Of a DNA stretch of 6,338 bases, positions 116 to 6,338 are shown one piece after another. Under the pieces are notes generated by a model. That model was not told the origin of the DNA. It ran no database searches and saw only the letters and a program-made list of their open reading frames with translations. How positions within the stretch are numbered: position 1 is the first letter of the stretch; each line of letters opens with the position of its first letter. The stretch comes from an uncultured Prevotella sp. GTDB taxonomy: Bacteria > Bacteroidota > Bacteroidia > Bacteroidales > Bacteroidaceae. The position numbers and the translations under genes are program-made. Where the stretch lies: NCBI GenBank assembly GCA_900770515.1, contig CAAHDP010000122.1:1-6338 (forward strand), in the 5' to 3' direction.

Positions 116-783
116 ATGATCCACTGCTCTTTCCACTGGTGACACTCATCATCATGGACGTGTTCCTGCAGAAGATGCGCATCAAGAAGAACCGAAAGAT
201 GCTCATCATCGAGGAGGCATGGAAAGCAATCGCCTCGCCCATGATGGCGGAATACATAAAATATCTGTATAAGACCGCCAGAAAGTTCTGGGCAAGCGTG
301 GGGGTAGTGACGCAGGAGATACAGGACATCATCGGAAGTGAGATAGTGAAGGAGGCCATCATCAACAACTCGGATGTGGTAATGCTGCTCGACCAGAGCA
401 AGTTCAAGGAACGCTTTGATACCATCAAGGCAATACTCGGTTTGACCGATGTGGACTGCAAGAAAATATTCACCATCAACCGCCTGGAGAACAAGGAAGG
501 ACGCAGTTTCTTCCGTGAAGTATTCATCAGGCGAGGACAGACCAGCAATGTGTATGGCGTGGAGGAACCGCATGAGTGCTATATGACCTATACCACGGAA
601 CGTGCGGAGAAGGAAGCGTTGAAGCTATACAAGCGAGAGTTGAAATGCAATCATCAGCAAGCCATTGAAGCCTATTGCAGGGATTGGGATGCGAGTGGTG
701 TTAGTAAGAGTTTGGCTTTTGCTCAGAAAGTGAATCAAACAGGGCATGTTTTGGGGGAACATCATATTTCCCCAAACCCCTAA
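116..783 (+). CDS. traG: TraG-family conjugation ATPase (VirB4-like), second exon / C-terminal part
   Basis: This is the C-terminal 221 residues of the cytoplasmic motor ATPase that energises the type IV mating apparatus of Bacteroidales conjugative elements. The exon opens with DPLLFPLVTLIIMD, then LIIEEAW at about 202-222, a Walker B motif with a tandem acidic pair. After that come a VVTQE segment (about 304-318) and an INNSDVVMLLDQ block (about 361-396), all typical of TraG/VirB4 proteins. Walker A and the N-terminal domain are missing because they lie in the exon upstream of the intron. Full-length family members are roughly 800 residues. A TTG at 67 opens the same frame but is intron sequence, so it is not a real start. 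The intron splits a codon after its first base (phase 1). If the last base of exon 1 is G, the restored codon is GAT (Asp), which fits my recollection of the family motif IKD-x-P. The last ~12 codons overlap a hairpin. Confidence 0.88.
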
Positions 784-790
784 TCTTTTT
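750..790 (+). terminator. Terminator-like hairpin overlapping the end of traG
   Basis: TTTGGGGGAA (750-759) pairs with TTTCCCCAAA (767-776) as ten base pairs with one G-T wobble, around a 7-nt loop. A run of five T follows at 786-790. The T run starts nine bases after the stem, further than in a classical intrinsic terminator, so this is only a candidate. If it works, it separates traG transcription from the genes starting at 1335. The 5' arm, loop and part of the 3' arm are inside the coding sequence, just before the TAA at 781-783. Confidence 0.35.
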
Positions 791-801
791 CGCCCCCCCG
801 T

Positions 802-823
802 CCTCCCTTACCCTTAAGGGAGG
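802..823. repeat. Perfect 9-bp inverted repeat (GC-rich hairpin)
   Basis: CCTCCCTTA (802-810) and TAAGGGAGG (815-823) are exact inverted copies around a 4-base loop. No T-run follows directly on either strand, so it is not a clear intrinsic terminator. A C/G homopolymer (CGCCCCCCCG, 791-800) lies just upstream. Together with the next hairpin it resembles dispersed intergenic palindromic repeats, but that cannot be shown from one window. Confidence 0.75.
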
Positions 824-842
824 CTCCACCGCTTTTCCCAAG

Positions 843-867
843 CCCCTTTCCCCTCAGGGGACAGGGG
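843..867. repeat. Double-block inverted repeat CCCCT-TT-CCCCT / AGGGG-AC-AGGGG
   Basis: Two CCCCT blocks (843-847, 850-854) are mirrored by two AGGGG blocks (856-860, 863-867), giving two 5-bp stems with a 2x2 internal loop and a one-base centre at 855. The blocks are direct repeats as well as inverted repeats, so slipped pairings are also possible. It sits 19 bp after the preceding hairpin and may be part of the same repeat element. Confidence 0.65.
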
Positions 868-914
868 ATGTAACCGCTCCTTCTCGTCGCTCGGAACCGC
901 TATGCTCTAAGGTT

Positions 915-960
915 GGCGGACCATCAAAGGTCTCGCCAGATTGTGCGGGATGGGACCGCC
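915..960. repeat. Imperfect long-loop inverted repeat
   Basis: GGCGG (915-919) pairs with CCGCC (956-960), and CCATC (921-925) with GATGG (949-953). An A faces GA as the internal asymmetry, and the loop is 23 bases. It could be an RNA stem or a degenerate element end. Two AACCGCT copies (872-878 and 895-901) lie just upstream. No function can be assigned. Confidence 0.35.
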
Positions 961-968
961 TTGGTGCT

Positions 969-1032
969 ACTTGCTTGCGACTTGCTTGCAGCTTGCTGAT
1001 ATGGTTGTTGGTGAACTTGCTGGTGAACTTGC
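969..1032. repeat. Cluster of short direct repeats containing ACTTGCT
   Basis: An 11-bp unit, ACTTGCTTGC(G/A), occurs twice back to back (969-979, 980-990) and is followed by a partial GCTTGCT. A 12-bp unit, TGGTGAACTTGC, then occurs twice exactly in tandem (1009-1020, 1021-1032). The shared core is CTTGCT. This could be replication-slippage debris or a protein-binding array. It also creates the spurious repetitive reverse-strand peptide in this area. Confidence 0.7.
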
Positions 1033-1126
1033 TCATAGAATGCTGATAAACAGCATGTTTCATAAAGGATGACGGCTGTTTGATGTGAGGGGAACAAAAA
1101 GAGTGATGATGGAAGCAAGATGATTG

Positions 1127-1198
1127 TAGTATATACTATAGGTAGTAATGACTATAGGTAGTGAATACTTTAGATAGTGAATACTTTGAGTAGTGTAA
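1127..1198. repeat. 12-bp palindrome plus four degenerate 16-bp tandem units
   Basis: TAGTATATACTA (1127-1138) is a perfect palindrome that runs into an array of 16-bp units: ACTATAGGTAGTAATG (1135-1150), ACTATAGGTAGTGAAT (1151-1166), ACTTTAGATAGTGAAT (1167-1182) and a diverged ACTTTGAGTAGTGTAA (1183-1198). Each unit has short ACT...AGT inverted arms. The layout is iteron- or operator-like, about 137 bp before the start of the alpha-CTD-like gene. The units differ by point changes and have no indels. Confidence 0.72.
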
Positions 1199-1263
1199 GT
1201 ATCGGCTGAGGGGAAGGAAGAGATGGGAAGAAATAGAGAGAACAAAAGCACTAACAAACAAAA

Positions 1264-1281
1264 ACACTAACATGTTAGTGT
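1264..1281. promoter_or_regulatory. Palindromic operator-like site, copy 1
   Basis: ACACTAACATGTTAGTGT is a perfect 18-bp palindrome with no central spacer, which favours binding by a dimeric protein over an RNA hairpin. An extra half-site, CACTAAC, lies at 1249-1255. The site is followed by GGGGATTTGGTAATG, the same downstream block seen after copies 2 and 4. Its right edge is 53 bp before the ATG at 1335, so it probably lies in or beside the promoter of that gene. I could not identify a convincing Bacteroidetes -7 box (TAnnTTTG). Confidence 0.75.
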
Positions 1282-1334
1282 GGGGATTTGGTAATGCAAG
1301 TAGAATAGAAACAATTAACGAAAGATAGGAGAAG

Positions 1335-2246
1335 ATGAAAAGAATTAATATCGTTGGGTTTATAGATTTCCATCGTGAAGAATGGGACATACGTCCGAGC
1401 ATGGTGGATAAAATACGTCAGGCTTTCCATGATTCTGAATTATGGACATATAAAGACCTGTGTGCTTGTACAGAGAAACAACTGTTGAAAATACGACATG
1501 TGACACCAGAGCTGGTGGGTCATGTAAAAGAAACTCTTGAAAATGTAGGACTACATCTTGGTATGACAGAAAAAGAGTTAGATGCATACCATGATGCAGA
1601 ATACGATGCAAGACATCAAAGTGTAGAACCCAAAGGGACACACGTACATGACGATGTTCTGAATATCTTGGATGGTGTCAACATATTGGAGTTTTTGCGC
1701 AAGAAAGCAGAAACAGGAAACATGGAAAAAGGAAGTGGAATACTCATACCAGAGGATGCTGCTACAGAACAAATTGTAGGGACATCCGAGGAAGATATTG
1801 CGGAAGAGGAAGCAAAAGAAGATGCTGTTTCTGCTAATGCGGATGGTATGCAGAAGAAAGAGATTGAATCGCTGCAAGAGACTGAGCAGAAAAAAGGGAC
1901 TGAGCAGTTGCAAGAAGCTGAACCATTGCAAGATATGGAGACGAAGCATAAGAAGAAATTTGATGCTCAAAAGGCCTATAACCATGCAATGGCAAGAATA
2001 CTGCGTGATCCATGCCAAATGTTGAGAGGCGATGACTTGGAGTTTATGCGACACCAGTTGGTGATGTCGGTATTGGAGCAGCAGAGTTGGCTGATGAGAA
2101 CATTCTGTTTCTTCAGCTATCGTGTGAAAGTAGCTATGCGGAAAGCTAACTATATCATGCTAGAGTACAGACACGACATGGGACTACGTTCCACAGTCTA
2201 TCAGCATCTGGAGTATGAGGGAACAATTAAAGAGCTTGAAGCATAA
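1335..2246 (+). CDS. Protein with RNA polymerase alpha-CTD-like N-terminal domain, putative transcription regulator
   Basis: This 303-residue protein has no signal peptide or membrane segment, so it is probably cytoplasmic. Residues ~18-77 resemble the alpha-subunit C-terminal domain of RNA polymerase, a helix-hairpin-helix fold. The clearest stretch is TEKQLLKIRHVT (46-57) and the ending ENVGLHLGM (69-77), which parallel TEVELLKTPNLG and SRGLSLGM of the bacterial subunit. Residues ~148-209 form an acidic, Glu/Gln/Lys-rich linker with repeats around 180-203. Residues ~210-303 are mostly helical and unrecognised. The start is supported by AGGAG at 1327-1331, closely spaced. The gene is more AT-rich than the transfer genes around it, suggesting separate acquisition. 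It has palindromic sites on both sides, which fits a DNA-linked or polymerase-linked role. The alternative is a helix-hairpin-helix protein of another function. The domain call is fairly good; the role is inference. Confidence 0.72.
   Translation: MKRINIVGFIDFHREEWDIRPSMVDKIRQAFHDSELWTYKDLCACTEKQLLKIRHVTPELVGHVKETLENVGLHLGMTEKELDAYHDAEYDARHQSVEPKGTHVHDDVLNILDGVNILEFLRKKAETGNMEKGSGILIPEDAATEQIVGTSEEDIAEEEAKEDAVSANADGMQKKEIESLQETEQKKGTEQLQEAEPLQDMETKHKKKFDAQKAYNHAMARILRDPCQMLRGDDLEFMRHQLVMSVLEQQSWLMRTFCFFSYRVKVAMRKANYIMLEYRHDMGLRSTVYQHLEYEGTIKELEA
1873..1934 (+). repeat. Short direct repeats in the linker of the alpha-CTD-like gene
   Basis: GACTGAGCAG occurs at 1880-1889 and 1899-1908, and TGCAAGA occurs three times (1873-1879, 1909-1915, 1927-1933). 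They encode the LQE(T/A)E-type repeats of the acidic linker, residues about 180-203. The pattern suggests linker growth by slippage, so its length may vary between relatives. Confidence 0.6.
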
Positions 2247-2266
2247 CGCACAAGATTGGAGCAAAA

Positions 2267-2284
2267 ACACTAACATGTTAGTGT
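2267..2284. promoter_or_regulatory. Palindromic operator-like site, copy 2
   Basis: This is a second exact copy of the 18-bp palindrome ACACTAACATGTTAGTGT, 20 bp after the stop of the alpha-CTD-like gene. It is followed by AAGAATTTGGTAGAAACAAA, matching the block after copies 1 and 4. It opens a three-palindrome array upstream of the 853-aa gene. Confidence 0.75.
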
Positions 2285-2321
2285 AAGAATTTGGTAGAAA
2301 CAAAAATTGTGTGAGGATTAG

Positions 2322-2335
2322 ACTAACATGTTAGT
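2322..2335. promoter_or_regulatory. Palindromic operator-like site, copy 3 (14-bp core)
   Basis: The core ACTAACATGTTAGT is intact, but the left flank is G where the other copies have C, so perfect symmetry shrinks to 14 bp. Its centre is 53 bp from copy 2. The 35 bases following its GTGT align without gaps to those following copy 2, so the palindrome is part of a longer repeat. Confidence 0.72.
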
Positions 2336-2384
2336 GTTATAGTTTGGGGAAGGACATGACTGTGTAAGGATTCAGAGGATTAAA

Positions 2385-2400
2385 CACTAACATGTTAGTG
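2385..2400. promoter_or_regulatory. Palindromic operator-like site, copy 4
   Basis: CACTAACATGTTAGTG is a perfect 16-bp palindrome centred 64 bp after copy 3. It is followed by GAGGATTTGGTAATAACAAA, nearly the same block as after copies 1 and 2. Its right edge is 40 bp before the ATG at 2441, a position where a bound protein would affect transcription initiation of the downstream operon. Confidence 0.75.
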
Positions 2401-2440
2401 CGAGGATTTGGTAATAACAAAAGAAAGACAGGTAAGGAAA

Positions 2441-5002
2441 ATGAAACGACTTCTATCCATCATGATACTGATAGTCTGTGTGTTGGTAAAGGCTGACGCA
2501 CAGTACTACAGCGTAAACTATGACAAGCAGACGGTGGCTGCTATGGCTGCTGCCTACGGAACAGAAGCCGTGGCAGAAGCATACTACAATGTGCAGGTGC
2601 AGAACATATTGAAACACTATAATGCTGCAGAAGTGGCGAGTGCCGGTATCTATGCCTCCAAGTTTCTGGAGCGCAAGGCAATGACGGAGTTGGGTATCTG
2701 GAACAGTAGCACAGAGAACTACTATTACCGCCGTATCTACAACATGGTGAGCAACAAAATCATGCCGAAGATATGGACGGTGGCAGGCATGATGCTGAAA
2801 AGTCCGCAGACCGCCCTGTATTGGGGAACCTATCTGATGAAGATATGCGACGACACCAAGAACCTATGCCTGCAGTTTGAGAGCGTGGTAACAAATAGTA
2901 CCCTCACCTTCTCGAACATCGCCTTTCTGCAAATCAACCAGGAGATAGCAGCCATCCTGAAACTATCGGAGATAGGCAACGTGGACTGGAAGAAGATGCT
3001 GGATGACCTGTCGAAGGTGCCTGACAACTTCACGGTGGACAATCTGAAAGCCGACATTGACAACCTGTACAAGGCAGGAGCCAACCTTGCCGGAGCAGGA
3101 ATGAGCAATGTAGGCAATGTCCTGTTGCAAAGCAGCCAGTTCAACGAACTCTTCCAAGGTAAGCTCGATGCAGCCATCGATATTGTGGATAACTACAGCG
3201 AATTGTGGAAAACTATGGATAAAAGCATCGGCAACACCCTATTGGGAATGATTGGAGGCAAGGATAACGTGGCAGGACTCTTTTCACTAGCCAACTATAA
3301 CCTGACCTCGTGGATGACTGACTATCTGGATGAGACAGCAGGAAACTACTATACGCAAAGATGGTATATCGCCCGACGAGACCAAGGAAGGGAAAAACTG
3401 TGCGACTATGTGCCTCCAACCGATAACAACAGCATCTTGAAAGGCGACCACTGGTATAGAATCAACACCAAGGATGCCAACTTCTATCCGAACAGCAACC
3501 AGAGAGAAGCAATCCTGCAAAACTCGGAGAACCATGCAGGATGGTCGAGAGCAAAGATGCAGCAGAAGAACAACCAGAAAGACGGCTTTGTCTATAGCAT
3601 CAACTACTGGATGGACAGTTATATCATCAGCAGCAAGAAGAAAGGACAGAAACAGAAGGCATACGCCTATGAGATACAGGTGTATAAGAGCTGGAACAAA
3701 ACAGAAGAAGTGTATGAGGCCGTCTTCGACTCCTATTCGATGGACTTGAACACATTCAAGGCGCAACTGCAAGCCCGGTTGAGTGAATGGAACGACAACG
3801 AAGAAGGCTATACCTATTATATAGGCTGTGATGCACGCAACTACTATCAGGGCACCGATGCCGCCAAACTGAAGGGATGCGAGAGCGTGACCATCAGCGT
3901 GACCTGCAGTGACGGTGTGCAGTTGGGGCAAGGAACCACGCAATACAAGTGCAAGAAATGTGGCGGTTCACTGAATGACCACAGCAAGAATTGCGCCATG
4001 ACAACATCTGTGACAGAGAACGACCTCGACTTATCAGACCTGTATAAGCAAGAGCAGGAAGCTAATGCCAAGGTAGCCACCCTGCAATCGCAAATCAGTC
4101 AATTGGAAGCGGAGAACAAGTCACTTATTAAGCAAATTGCCAATGCAAGCGTGGACGATGCAGCCAAATATCGGGAACAATACAACAAAAACAAGACCGC
4201 CATCGACCAGTTGAACAAAGAGCTGGCAGCCTGGCAACAGAAGCAAAAGGACATAGAGGAAGCCAAGGCCGAGGCAGGAAAGGACAATGAGATGGCGACG
4301 GACGACTACTATCGCATACCTGCCATTATGAACGACTGCAGGAGTGCCTATAACCTAAGTTGGCAGGGAGAAGGAACATGGAGTGGCTATACATATATAA
4401 GAAAAGCCACCATGCCCAACATCAACGGCATCATCACCTTCAAGGCAACTCTGACTATAGCCAGAAAGCCAAAATACTTCTTGGGCATCAAGATACACAG
4501 AGCCATCATGCATATCAGTTGGGAACTAACATCGGAATACACCCATACATCGGTGGTGGATGTGATAACACTCGATGCCAGCAAGACGGAGCAGGAAAAG
4601 GCCAATGAGGTGAACAAGCGCATATCGGAAATAGCCCAGGAATATCCGTCGTGCAAAATAACCACCGAATACGCCAAGAGCGCACCCGTGGAAGACAACA
4701 CCACCGATGATACCTATCATCTGTTATGGTCGAGTGACAGACTGGAGATAGCCAGAGAGGTGGACAGCAGAATCACGAAGATATATGCCGACCTGGTGTC
4801 GTTGGAGAAGATGATGCACTATAAGCGCAACATCATCGATGTGCTGATGGACATCGCTCCCCATATCAATGCCGATGAAGGAAGACGGTTGACACTGGTG
4901 GAGAAATGCAAGAAACGCTGGCTAAGGAAAGCAGCGAACACCAAGCATTCGGATGACTATCACGGAAAATTCAATGATGAAGACAATGAAAATGAGAAAT
5001 AG
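2441..5002 (+). CDS. Large exported protein (853 aa) with CxxC...HxxxC motif and coiled coil, putative transfer protein
   Basis: I do not recognise this family by name. The start is ATG 2441, preceded by AAGGAA and giving a clear signal peptide (MKRLLSIMILIVCVLVKADA, cut before Q21); an in-frame TTG at 2408 would put charged residues ahead of it. No lipobox is visible. The mature protein is helical and Ala-rich to about residue 300, then mixed and Tyr/Trp-rich. It has a C504-x2-C507-x6-H514-x3-C518 motif that could bind zinc or form disulfides; twelve cysteines lie in the mature part. Residues ~534-613 form a coiled coil with a break near 567-575. The C-terminal part (about 620-853) includes a possible strand-rich segment and ends in a charged tail. 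No internal membrane segment is evident. Position after traG and overlap with the next gene suggest an envelope component of the mating apparatus (inference). Confidence 0.8.
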   Translation: MKRLLSIMILIVCVLVKADAQYYSVNYDKQTVAAMAAAYGTEAVAEAYYNVQVQNILKHYNAAEVASAGIYASKFLERKAMTELGIWNSSTENYYYRRIYNMVSNKIMPKIWTVAGMMLKSPQTALYWGTYLMKICDDTKNLCLQFESVVTNSTLTFSNIAFLQINQEIAAILKLSEIGNVDWKKMLDDLSKVPDNFTVDNLKADIDNLYKAGANLAGAGMSNVGNVLLQSSQFNELFQGKLDAAIDIVDNYSELWKTMDKSIGNTLLGMIGGKDNVAGLFSLANYNLTSWMTDYLDETAGNYYTQRWYIARRDQGREKLCDYVPPTDNNSILKGDHWYRINTKDANFYPNSNQREAILQNSENHAGWSRAKMQQKNNQKDGFVYSINYWMDSYIISSKKKGQKQKAYAYEIQVYKSWNKTEEVYEAVFDSYSMDLNTFKAQLQARLSEWNDNEEGYTYYIGCDARNYYQGTDAAKLKGCESVTISVTCSDGVQLGQGTTQYKCKKCGGSLNDHSKNCAMTTSVTENDLDLSDLYKQEQEANAKVATLQSQISQLEAENKSLIKQIANASVDDAAKYREQYNKNKTAIDQLNKELAAWQQKQKDIEEAKAEAGKDNEMATDDYYRIPAIMNDCRSAYNLSWQGEGTWSGYTYIRKATMPNINGIITFKATLTIARKPKYFLGIKIHRAIMHISWELTSEYTHTSVVDVITLDASKTEQEKANEVNKRISEIAQEYPSCKITTEYAKSAPVEDNTTDDTYHLLWSSDRLEIAREVDSRITKIYADLVSLEKMMHYKRNIIDVLMDIAPHINADEGRRLTLVEKCKKRWLRKAANTKHSDDYHGKFNDEDNENEK

Positions 5003-5792
5003 AAAAGAATACAAGGCTGATGCAGCGGAGAGGGTTGCAGGGTTGGTGAGCAAGAAGCAAAGATTGAGCATTGTGAGGACATTGCTGATAGCAATCATGT
5101 TCCTCGCCCTCCCCTCTAAAACATTCGCTCAATGGGGATTTGATGTGAGCAGTGTAGAAGCATACATCAATGACCACAAGAAACAGCGAAGTCTGCTGCT
5201 TGCAAGAAGCACCTTGGAGTACAGTAACAAGTTATTGCACAGCTACAGCAATGATGCGACCAAGGCATATAAGGAACTAAACGTGGATCTGGATAAGTAC
5301 ACCAGGGCGTTCGATGTGATAGACGTGCTGTACCAGAGTCTCAGAACCAGTCTGAATGTATATTCCACCTACGAGGGTGTGAGCGACAGAATTTCGGACT
5401 ACAAGAAGCTGCTGGATGACTACAATAAAAAAGTCATCAAACGAAAGCGCATTTCAGTTGCTGATACAATACTGATAGGTATCAACAAACGAGCCATAGA
5501 GAACATCGCCAAGGAAGGAGAATACCTGTACAAGAGCGTGAGCGACCTGGTGCTGTATGCCACAGGAGCAGCAGCATGTTCGACGGCAGACCTGCTAGTG
5601 GTGCTGGAAAGCATCAATACCTCGCTCGACAACATAGAGAAGCATCTGAACAAAAGCTACTTTGAGTCGTGGCGGTATATCCAAGTGTGCATCGGCTATT
5701 GGAAAGAAAAGGTGTATCGGACCAAGAGCAAGCAGCAAATACTGGAGGATGCCTTCGGGCGGTGGCGAGTGGCAGGAAAACTTGAAAAATAA
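4974..5792 (+). CDS. Exported helical protein (272 aa), putative conjugative transfer protein
   Basis: The product is not recognised with certainty. It has an export signal with hydrophobic core TLLIAIMFLALP (residues ~36-47) and probable cleavage at TFA|QW (52/53). The mature ~220 residues are almost entirely helical with heptad-like stretches (e.g. 85-135), one AAACS segment, and no transmembrane helix. A small helical protein in a transfer operon could be a VirB5/TrbJ-type component, but this rests on size and position only. ATG 4974 is preferred because GGAAAA lies at 4964-4969. It makes a 29-nt overlap with the preceding gene, indicating translational coupling, but gives an unusually long charged n-region. 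TTG 5043 or GTG 5046, preceded by GGAGAGGG (5027-5034), would give a normal signal peptide. Starts at 4953, 4977, 4986 and 4992 are also in frame. Confidence 0.75.
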   Translation: MMKTMKMRNRKEYKADAAERVAGLVSKKQRLSIVRTLLIAIMFLALPSKTFAQWGFDVSSVEAYINDHKKQRSLLLARSTLEYSNKLLHSYSNDATKAYKELNVDLDKYTRAFDVIDVLYQSLRTSLNVYSTYEGVSDRISDYKKLLDDYNKKVIKRKRISVADTILIGINKRAIENIAKEGEYLYKSVSDLVLYATGAAACSTADLLVVLESINTSLDNIEKHLNKSYFESWRYIQVCIGYWKEKVYRTKSKQQILEDAFGRWRVAGKLEK

Positions 5793-5817: not shown

Positions 5818-6338
5818 ATGGACAGAAAGAAGATAAAGGCAGTAGCCGTCATGATGATGTTGGGCATAGCCATGACAGGCAAAGCCCAAAGTGGTGTGAC
5901 ATACAACCACGACAGTGCTAAGAAGAACCAGATAACGGTGATGGAAACCGGTAGTGGTAGCCTATCGCCAACGGAGTACTACCAGTTGCTGCATAGCAGC
6001 TACATGAAATCGGCTGCAAGCAAGAACAAACTCGGTTATCGTACCACGGCAGGTATAGGAGCCTATAATCAGGTGGAATATGCTGAAGCTATCGACTCTG
6101 CCCTGACCAAGAGAGCGGAGATAGAAGCACTGAACATAGCAGACCGACAGGTAGATCTGGCATGGAAGGTGGAAGGAAGCAAGATAAACAGCAAGATGGA
6201 TGCCTTCAAGAAGAACATCGACCGCATCCTGCCTGTAGGCGGATCCATCGGTGACAAGCAGCGCTGGACAGAATACTATCATGTCTATGAGACAGCCATC
6301 AAAGCCACCAAGGATGCCTATATGCCCAATGCCAAGCG
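5818..6338 (+). CDS. Exported protein, N-terminal part (right edge partial), putative conjugative transfer protein
   Basis: The frame is open from ATG 5818 to the window end without a stop, giving at least 173 residues. The N-terminus is a typical signal peptide: DRKKIK, then the hydrophobic AVAVMMMLGIAMTG, with cleavage near GKA|QS (residues ~24/25). The mature part begins with a Ser/Thr/Gly-rich segment containing ITVMETGSGSLSPTEYYQLL (~41-60), followed by mostly helical, charged sequence with YNQVEYAEAIDSAL (~84-97) and WTEYYHVYETAI (~150-161). From memory this resembles an uncharacterised Bacteroidales family (DUF5045) found in transfer regions, but I could not check this. The 25-bp gap after the previous gene and shared export signal suggest the same operon and apparatus. 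It has no internal membrane segment so far. Confidence 0.78.
   Translation, partial: MDRKKIKAVAVMMMLGIAMTGKAQSGVTYNHDSAKKNQITVMETGSGSLSPTEYYQLLHSSYMKSAASKNKLGYRTTAGIGAYNQVEYAEAIDSALTKRAEIEALNIADRQVDLAWKVEGSKINSKMDAFKKNIDRILPVGGSIGDKQRWTEYYHVYETAIKATKDAYMPNAK

Follow-up and report, generated by a model that had tools for sequence, protein, structure and literature searches.

Agrobacterium Ti plasmids carry four 18-bp inverted-repeat tra boxes, the operators of TraR, in the promoter regions of their transfer genes, as described in the accessible part of the source (PMC3907764). The sigma-ABfr promoter of Bacteroides is described, again in the accessible part of the source, with TAnnTTTG at -7 and TTTG near -33, and PM2 of B. 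thetaiotaomicron is presented there as a near-palindromic promoter motif with two elements at -10 and -30 (PMC7366714).

In the present work we analysed a locus of an uncultured Prevotella sp. in which a short palindrome is repeated ahead of two gene starts. The window, i.e. the whole stretch of DNA that was analysed, is 6,338 nucleotides long and encodes five proteins, all on the + strand. The 3' exon of traG, coding for a VirB4-type ATPase (TraG P-loop domain, Pfam, E 1.8e-64), lies at 116-783, after the 3', catalytic end of a group II intron (19-115, Rfam RF00029), which breaks the gene. Because the match to the traG genes of relatives resumes at 116, the start of the open reading frame 67-783 is not a real gene start. 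The exon is followed by a gene for an alpha-CTD-like protein of 303 aa (1335-2246) and by a transfer operon. The first operon gene (2441-5002) encodes 853 aa with an apparent signal peptide (by eye) and is syntenic with tra genes of the relatives; the second is a 279-aa frame with a putative start and no assigned function (4953-5792); the third is a DUF5045 tra gene (5818-6336, Pfam), which is cut by the window end. Gene order is broadly alike in two annotated relatives, where it extends to traK and traM, and in one of them also to traN. With traG before it, DUF5045 within it and this continuation in relatives, the operon is indeed one for transfer, as the sequence-only reading of the window had supposed. 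That reading had also found no classical DNA-binding regulator in the window, and none was recognised by Pfam among the five proteins.

Four palindromes with a common tail

The dyad CACTAACATGTTAGTG occurs in three exact copies of 16 bp, at 1265-1280 (copy 1), 2268-2283 (copy 2) and 2385-2400 (copy 4), and a further copy at 2321-2336 (copy 3), with one mismatch, reads GACTAACATGTTAGTG. These sites are symmetric and are given without strand. Unbroken symmetry was measured over 18, 18, 14 and 16 bp in copies 1 to 4, respectively, the value for copy 1 including the flanking A/T. The 14-18 bp of symmetry announced by the sequence-only reading is thus correct and leaves room for copy 3, whose symmetry is unbroken over no more than 14 bp. 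A match with three mismatches was also found at 5222, inside a gene. Counting it, the window holds five matches at no more than three mismatches, against a mean of 0.04 and a largest count of 1 in shuffled windows, and none of 200 shuffles reached five.

All four palindromes are confined to two intergenic gaps, one copy before the alpha-CTD-like gene and three before the type IV secretion operon, the placement given earlier. The distance from each palindrome to the start that it precedes ranges from 48.5 to 165.5 bp, with 62.5 bp between the dyad of copy 1 and the ATG of the alpha-CTD-like gene and 48.5 bp between that of copy 4 and the first ATG of the operon. The centres of copies 2, 3 and 4 are spaced by 53 and 64 bp, corresponding to 5.05 and 6.10 helical turns; these values near 5 and 6 turns are suggestive of one helical face, although two spacings prove little. 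The palindrome array is a real and well-defined feature. An extra single half-site, CACTAAC, lies on the + strand at 1249-1255, 16 bp upstream of the half-site of copy 1. Farther upstream of copy 1, at 1126-1196, a 16-bp unit resembling GTAGTAATACTATAG is repeated in tandem about four times, the first copy being partly palindromic (by eye), and short tandem repeats of 11 and 12 bp (TGCAACTTGCT and TTGCTGGTGAAC) were seen at 965-1033.

Each palindrome is followed on the + strand by a TTTGG box, at 1287-1291, 2290-2294, 2343-2347 and 2407-2411 in units 1 to 4, respectively. The box is invariant in all four and always lies at +15 relative to the dyad centre, so that palindrome and tail form a directional unit. 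Its five columns are the longest invariant run; when the four 24-nt tails were shuffled 50,000 times, no run exceeded three. The shared block that the sequence-only reading had noticed after each palindrome is accordingly real, and its view of a unit resembling a protein site ahead of two gene starts agrees with the repeated, directional pattern, as far as sequence can tell.

That reading had further argued for selection from arms kept in otherwise diverged DNA. Between copies, identity is 94-100% in the palindrome, 44-81% over the 16 bases that follow it and 25-54% in the flanking DNA past the tail, which bears out the contrast between arms and flanks, but some post-palindrome stretches are alike beyond chance: none of 1000 shuffles was as good for copies 2 and 4 or for copies 1 and 4, and 5 of 1000 were for copies 2 and 3. 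Likeness was not unusual for the pairs 1-2, 3-4 and 1-3 (86, 207 and 522 of 1000 shuffles, respectively). As these comparisons include the shared tail, which explains part of the likeness, they do not prove duplication; local tandem duplication within the array of copies 2-4 may have occurred, and the likeness of some pairs counts against a pure selection argument.

The units might also act as RNA, the hairpins with their AUUUGG tail controlling translation or decay from within 5' leaders. In line with such an action, all four are on the sense strand, each before a gene, and the tail is directional; in copies 1 and 2 a 7-bp stem forms, closed by a CAUG loop. Folding barely beats that of shuffled sequences, however (z from -0.47 to -1.30), and copies 3 and 4 fold best into different structures. 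Moreover, the symmetry runs perfectly through the central CATG, which in the hairpins of copies 1 and 2 is an unpaired loop, and this favours a dimer site on DNA. We therefore regard an action through RNA as improbable.

The traG-operon junction in related loci

To gather related loci, genomes were scanned for the 853-aa protein, and 80 of the 110 loci confirmed were kept; five loci from IMG/VR and three from plasmids bring the total to 88 loci and 1.63 Mb. One of them (L074) was dropped from the comparison of junctions, since no traG-operon junction could be placed in it, which left 87 junctions. At no more than two mismatches the palindrome was absent from all 88 loci and from 87 of 87 homologous junctions.

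The closest relatives found, L010 (Bacteroides faecis), L011 (Prevotella sp. 885) and L012 (Prevotellamassilia timonensis), share with the window 92% DNA identity in traG and about 88% in the operon. They are without the window's stretch from about 745 to 2415 (+ strand), and their traG reaches the operon across a short gap. Judged by this alignment, the 1.67-kb segment, which comprises repeats, the alpha-CTD-like gene and all four palindromes, appears as a clean addition relative to these three loci. A regulon conserved together with these genes, as the sequence-only reading had envisaged, finds no support in the 87 junctions, including those of the relatives with about 88% identity: the operon genes are conserved and the palindrome is missing, the outcome which that reading itself had named in advance as speaking against it.

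The junction is a variable spot. The gap between traG and the operon is shorter than 100 nt in 35 loci, 100-299 nt in 12 and at least 300 nt in 40 of the 87. A distant alpha-CTD-like gene occupies the same junction in 20 of the 87 loci, every time without the palindrome, which disagrees with co-occurrence of the palindrome with the alpha-CTD-like family at large; weaker matches to such a gene were found at the junction of three more loci (L037, L080 and L087). In the lineage of the window, the alpha-CTD-like gene was either gained or retained together with long flanking stretches in which the four sites lie. By eye, the alpha-CTD-like gene at the junction of L087 (3355-5036) is followed by an open reading frame resembling a phage Bro-N antirepressor, and in L043, as in the window, traG is set apart from the alpha-CTD-like gene by a GC-rich gap with the look of a repeat (about 1205-1463).

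A variable junction with like copies on both sides of the alpha-CTD-like gene is also what would be seen if the palindromes were recombination or insertion sites marking an exchangeable alpha-CTD cassette. We give this explanation little credence, given that the boundaries of the segment (about 745 and 2415) lie elsewhere than the palindromes (1265-2400), that no palindrome is left at the 87 junctions, that three copies stand on one side and that no recombinase was recognised in the window by Pfam.

The alpha-CTD-like protein

The product of 1335-2246 matched no Pfam family at E<=1, and so does not reach the curated score of PF03118 (cut-off 23.8 bits). Among eight homologues scanned, this cut-off was passed by three (L005, 34.2 bits; L008, 24.8; L030, 25.2), three scored below it (L043, 19.7; L055, 16.1; L091, 15.9) and two (L006 and L032) gave no match at all. 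Three of the five families listed from NCBIfam are rpoA models; the similarity to them is weak (best E 0.0046), and all scores fall far short of the cut-off. A PDB profile search at E<=10 gave five matches, all of them RNA polymerase alpha subunits and weak (E 0.043-0.63), and a tEkqLLkIR...GLhLGM pattern is common to the window protein and the RNA polymerase alpha-CTD. In the structure model, residues 21-80 have pLDDT values of 74-85, compared with 53 for the whole model; about this stretch is predicted to take the alpha-CTD fold, followed by a low-confidence linker and a helical C-terminal region. The best Foldseek match had an E value of 6.3e-3 and a TM score by target of 0.77, with none at E<=0.001, and the best 50 of 104 matches at E<=10 were all, by title, RNA polymerase alpha chains or complexes. 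By its predicted fold and via its PF03118-passing homologues the protein is thus alpha-CTD-like, in agreement with the label that it had been given from sequence alone. An alpha-CTD-like family with a C-terminal extension was seen inside Bacteroidota tra operons, where it is encoded between traG and the gene of the 853-aa protein (L005, L008, L022, L030, L032, L036, L055 and others), with the GxKS loop kept in some members and lost in others. A literature search found no paper on such proteins from Bacteroidota conjugative elements, the two papers listed being off topic by title and opening of the abstract.

The residues of the N-F-G-[QR]-K-S loop of the alpha-CTD contact DNA, and the domain binds the A/T-rich minor groove and is not known to bind a 16-bp CATG-centred dyad. 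This loop, present in two solved alpha-CTDs, is replaced by V-T-P-E-L in the window protein, as in 15 of 15 aligned close sequences. Among the homologues it reads T-P-[DE]-K in L003, L006 and L032 and G-[RH]-K-S in L005, L022 and L030, and it is retained in part in L008, L036, L085 and L043.

These data bear on the proposal, made in the sequence-only reading, that the alpha-CTD-like product is itself the cognate protein, binding the palindromes for autoregulation and for control of the operon. Its gene is flanked by palindromes on both sides, gene and palindromes are jointly missing in L010-L012, and the protein has the predicted fold of a DNA-binding domain. The usual DNA-contact loop is missing, however, even though some distant homologues keep it, and the 20 junctions with distant alpha-CTD-like genes are devoid of the palindrome; on these comparisons we do not favour the protein as the binder and consider that role quite unlikely.

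The close subfamily of this protein is common, with 676 proteins at E<=0.001 among 1349 candidates from public genomes and metagenomes and an identity of 79-95% in the best 120 of the 676. It was sampled here as protein sequences, and the palindrome may travel with it. A close gene with DNA context was not found in plasmids, also by DNA search, or in phages, and none was confirmed among 42 genome-contig stretches that matched a pattern or among 39 IMG/VR stretches. Partial matches only were obtained in 2 of 299 genomes of the genus, at 31-33% identity, and in 10 of 399 genomes of the family, at 11 places. DNA searches of 60 and 276 genomes gave no match, being a weak test for lack of a known positive. 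A longer DNA query that included the stretch 793-986 matched 6 of 149 genomes, in that stretch alone. The latter is an interspersed intergenic repeat, found in 2-3 places in each of 4 of the 6 matching genomes; it has up to 90% identity to its copies in the genome G049 and 83-86% to copies in two plasmids of Segatella copri DSM 18205, which suggests a Segatella copri-like host.

A candidate operator array and its relation to known systems

With its tail, the palindrome was found in no IMG/VR contig, and the bare 16-mer in three. In the genus of L011, the tailed pattern at no more than two mismatches occurred in 1 of 398 genomes, against 5 of 398 for the reversed control; among 273 genomes of the genus of G049, the 16-mer without tail was present in 2 at no more than one mismatch, against 1 of 273 for the control, the two genome sets overlapping. 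The four whole genomes behind L010, L011, L012 and L062 contain among them one site with two mismatches. No host-wide regulon is thus seen in related genomes. BLAST searches of plasmids with one unit and with the array gave best E values of 2 and 7, respectively, and the palindrome, searched as text, did not occur in a literature corpus of 5.39 million papers. A screen for repeated palindromes among the loci gathered to that point returned only the window and the phage contig L095, which by eye reads as an unrelated phage. In another phage contig (L094, 338-367) the same 16-mer lies within a 30-bp palindrome ahead of an apparent gene start (by eye), probably by coincidence. The idea that the palindromes belong to a dispersed, non-regulatory host repeat, for which the interspersed repeat in the same gap might plead, is very improbable, as they lie outside 793-986 and stay at control level in related genomes. 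Their absence from 87 of 87 junctions and this control level point to a lineage-specific addition.

We conclude that the array is probably the operator array of a lineage-specific control module, and we put at roughly 60% the probability that the four palindromes are operators of a homodimeric DNA-binding regulator encoded outside the window, which sets the transcription of two units. Each operator unit would consist of the 14-18 bp dyad and the directional TTTGG 15 bp downstream of its centre; one operator would serve the alpha-CTD-like gene, and three would serve the type IV secretion genes downstream. By lying between traG and the next tra gene, the 1.67-kb segment would split the operon, and the downstream half would gain its own switch. 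The TTTGG would fall within the -7 region of the promoter, and the dyad would span about -30 to -13. We infer protein binding, the part of TTTGG in a -7 element, the sign of the regulation and the identity of the regulator, the last as a protein from elsewhere.

If TTTGG ends a -7 element of the sigma-ABfr type, the 5' UTRs would by arithmetic measure about 40 nt from copy 1 and about 26 nt from copy 4. No canonical TAnnTTTG is present on the + strand of the window; an off-by-one form, TATAGTTTG, occurs at copy 3 only, and in all four units TTTG is present and TA is missing. The promoter would for this reason depart from the canonical form, in keeping with a need for an activator or for another sigma factor. 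Scans of 740-2460 gave one sigma70-like site against a shuffle mean of 3.7 and no terminator-like site against 0.8, the sigma70 model and the terminator scan being uninformative for this phylum.

A bolder form of the proposal, which we hold to be doubtful, is a two-part switch, in which the dyad-binding regulator would act together with a free alpha-CTD homologue that has lost its DNA contact and serves as an adaptor to RNA polymerase or sigma. Operator-plus-TTTGG units without a normal -7 box would then be read only with both parts present, and the mobile element would express its transfer genes from promoters of a class of its own. To our knowledge, little is known about the switching of conjugation in Bacteroidota elements other than CTnDOT. 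The locus suggests that the addition of a regulated module at the variable traG junction is a way to exchange control, and the operator sequence is usable as bait for pulling down its regulator.

Compared with known systems, the window protein resembles the RNA polymerase alpha-CTD (PF03118) in its predicted fold and in the sequence pattern given above. It differs from RNA polymerase alpha in that no N-terminal domain is seen, in its long linker and in a helical C-terminal region (low confidence), and from the alpha-CTD in the loss of the GxKS loop and in being encoded inside a tra operon. PM2, compared here by its description, is likewise near-palindromic, lies upstream of starts and comes from the same bacterial order, but the palindrome is one compact 16-bp dyad. 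The likeness to the sigma-ABfr promoter, taken as given in the accessible part of the source (PMC7366714), lies in a TTTG whose spacing fits the end of a -7 element with short 5' leaders; the TA of TAnnTTTG is found in none of the four copies, and by eye there is no TTTG at -33. The nearest functional parallel would be the Ti tra boxes, by analogy and with no claim of membership: in both, as far as the accessible part of the source describes the boxes, four inverted-repeat operators of similar length belong to the transfer genes of a conjugative element, and the 14-18 bp of unbroken symmetry ahead of conjugation genes compares with a dyad of about 18 bp. For operators of the tra-box (LuxR/TraR) type, further hallmarks are a LuxR-type regulator encoded by the same element and activation of the promoter when it binds. 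The two arrays differ in sequence, host phylum and promoter type, and the array of the window is distinguished by a TTTGG at a fixed distance from each dyad and by three copies before one operon.
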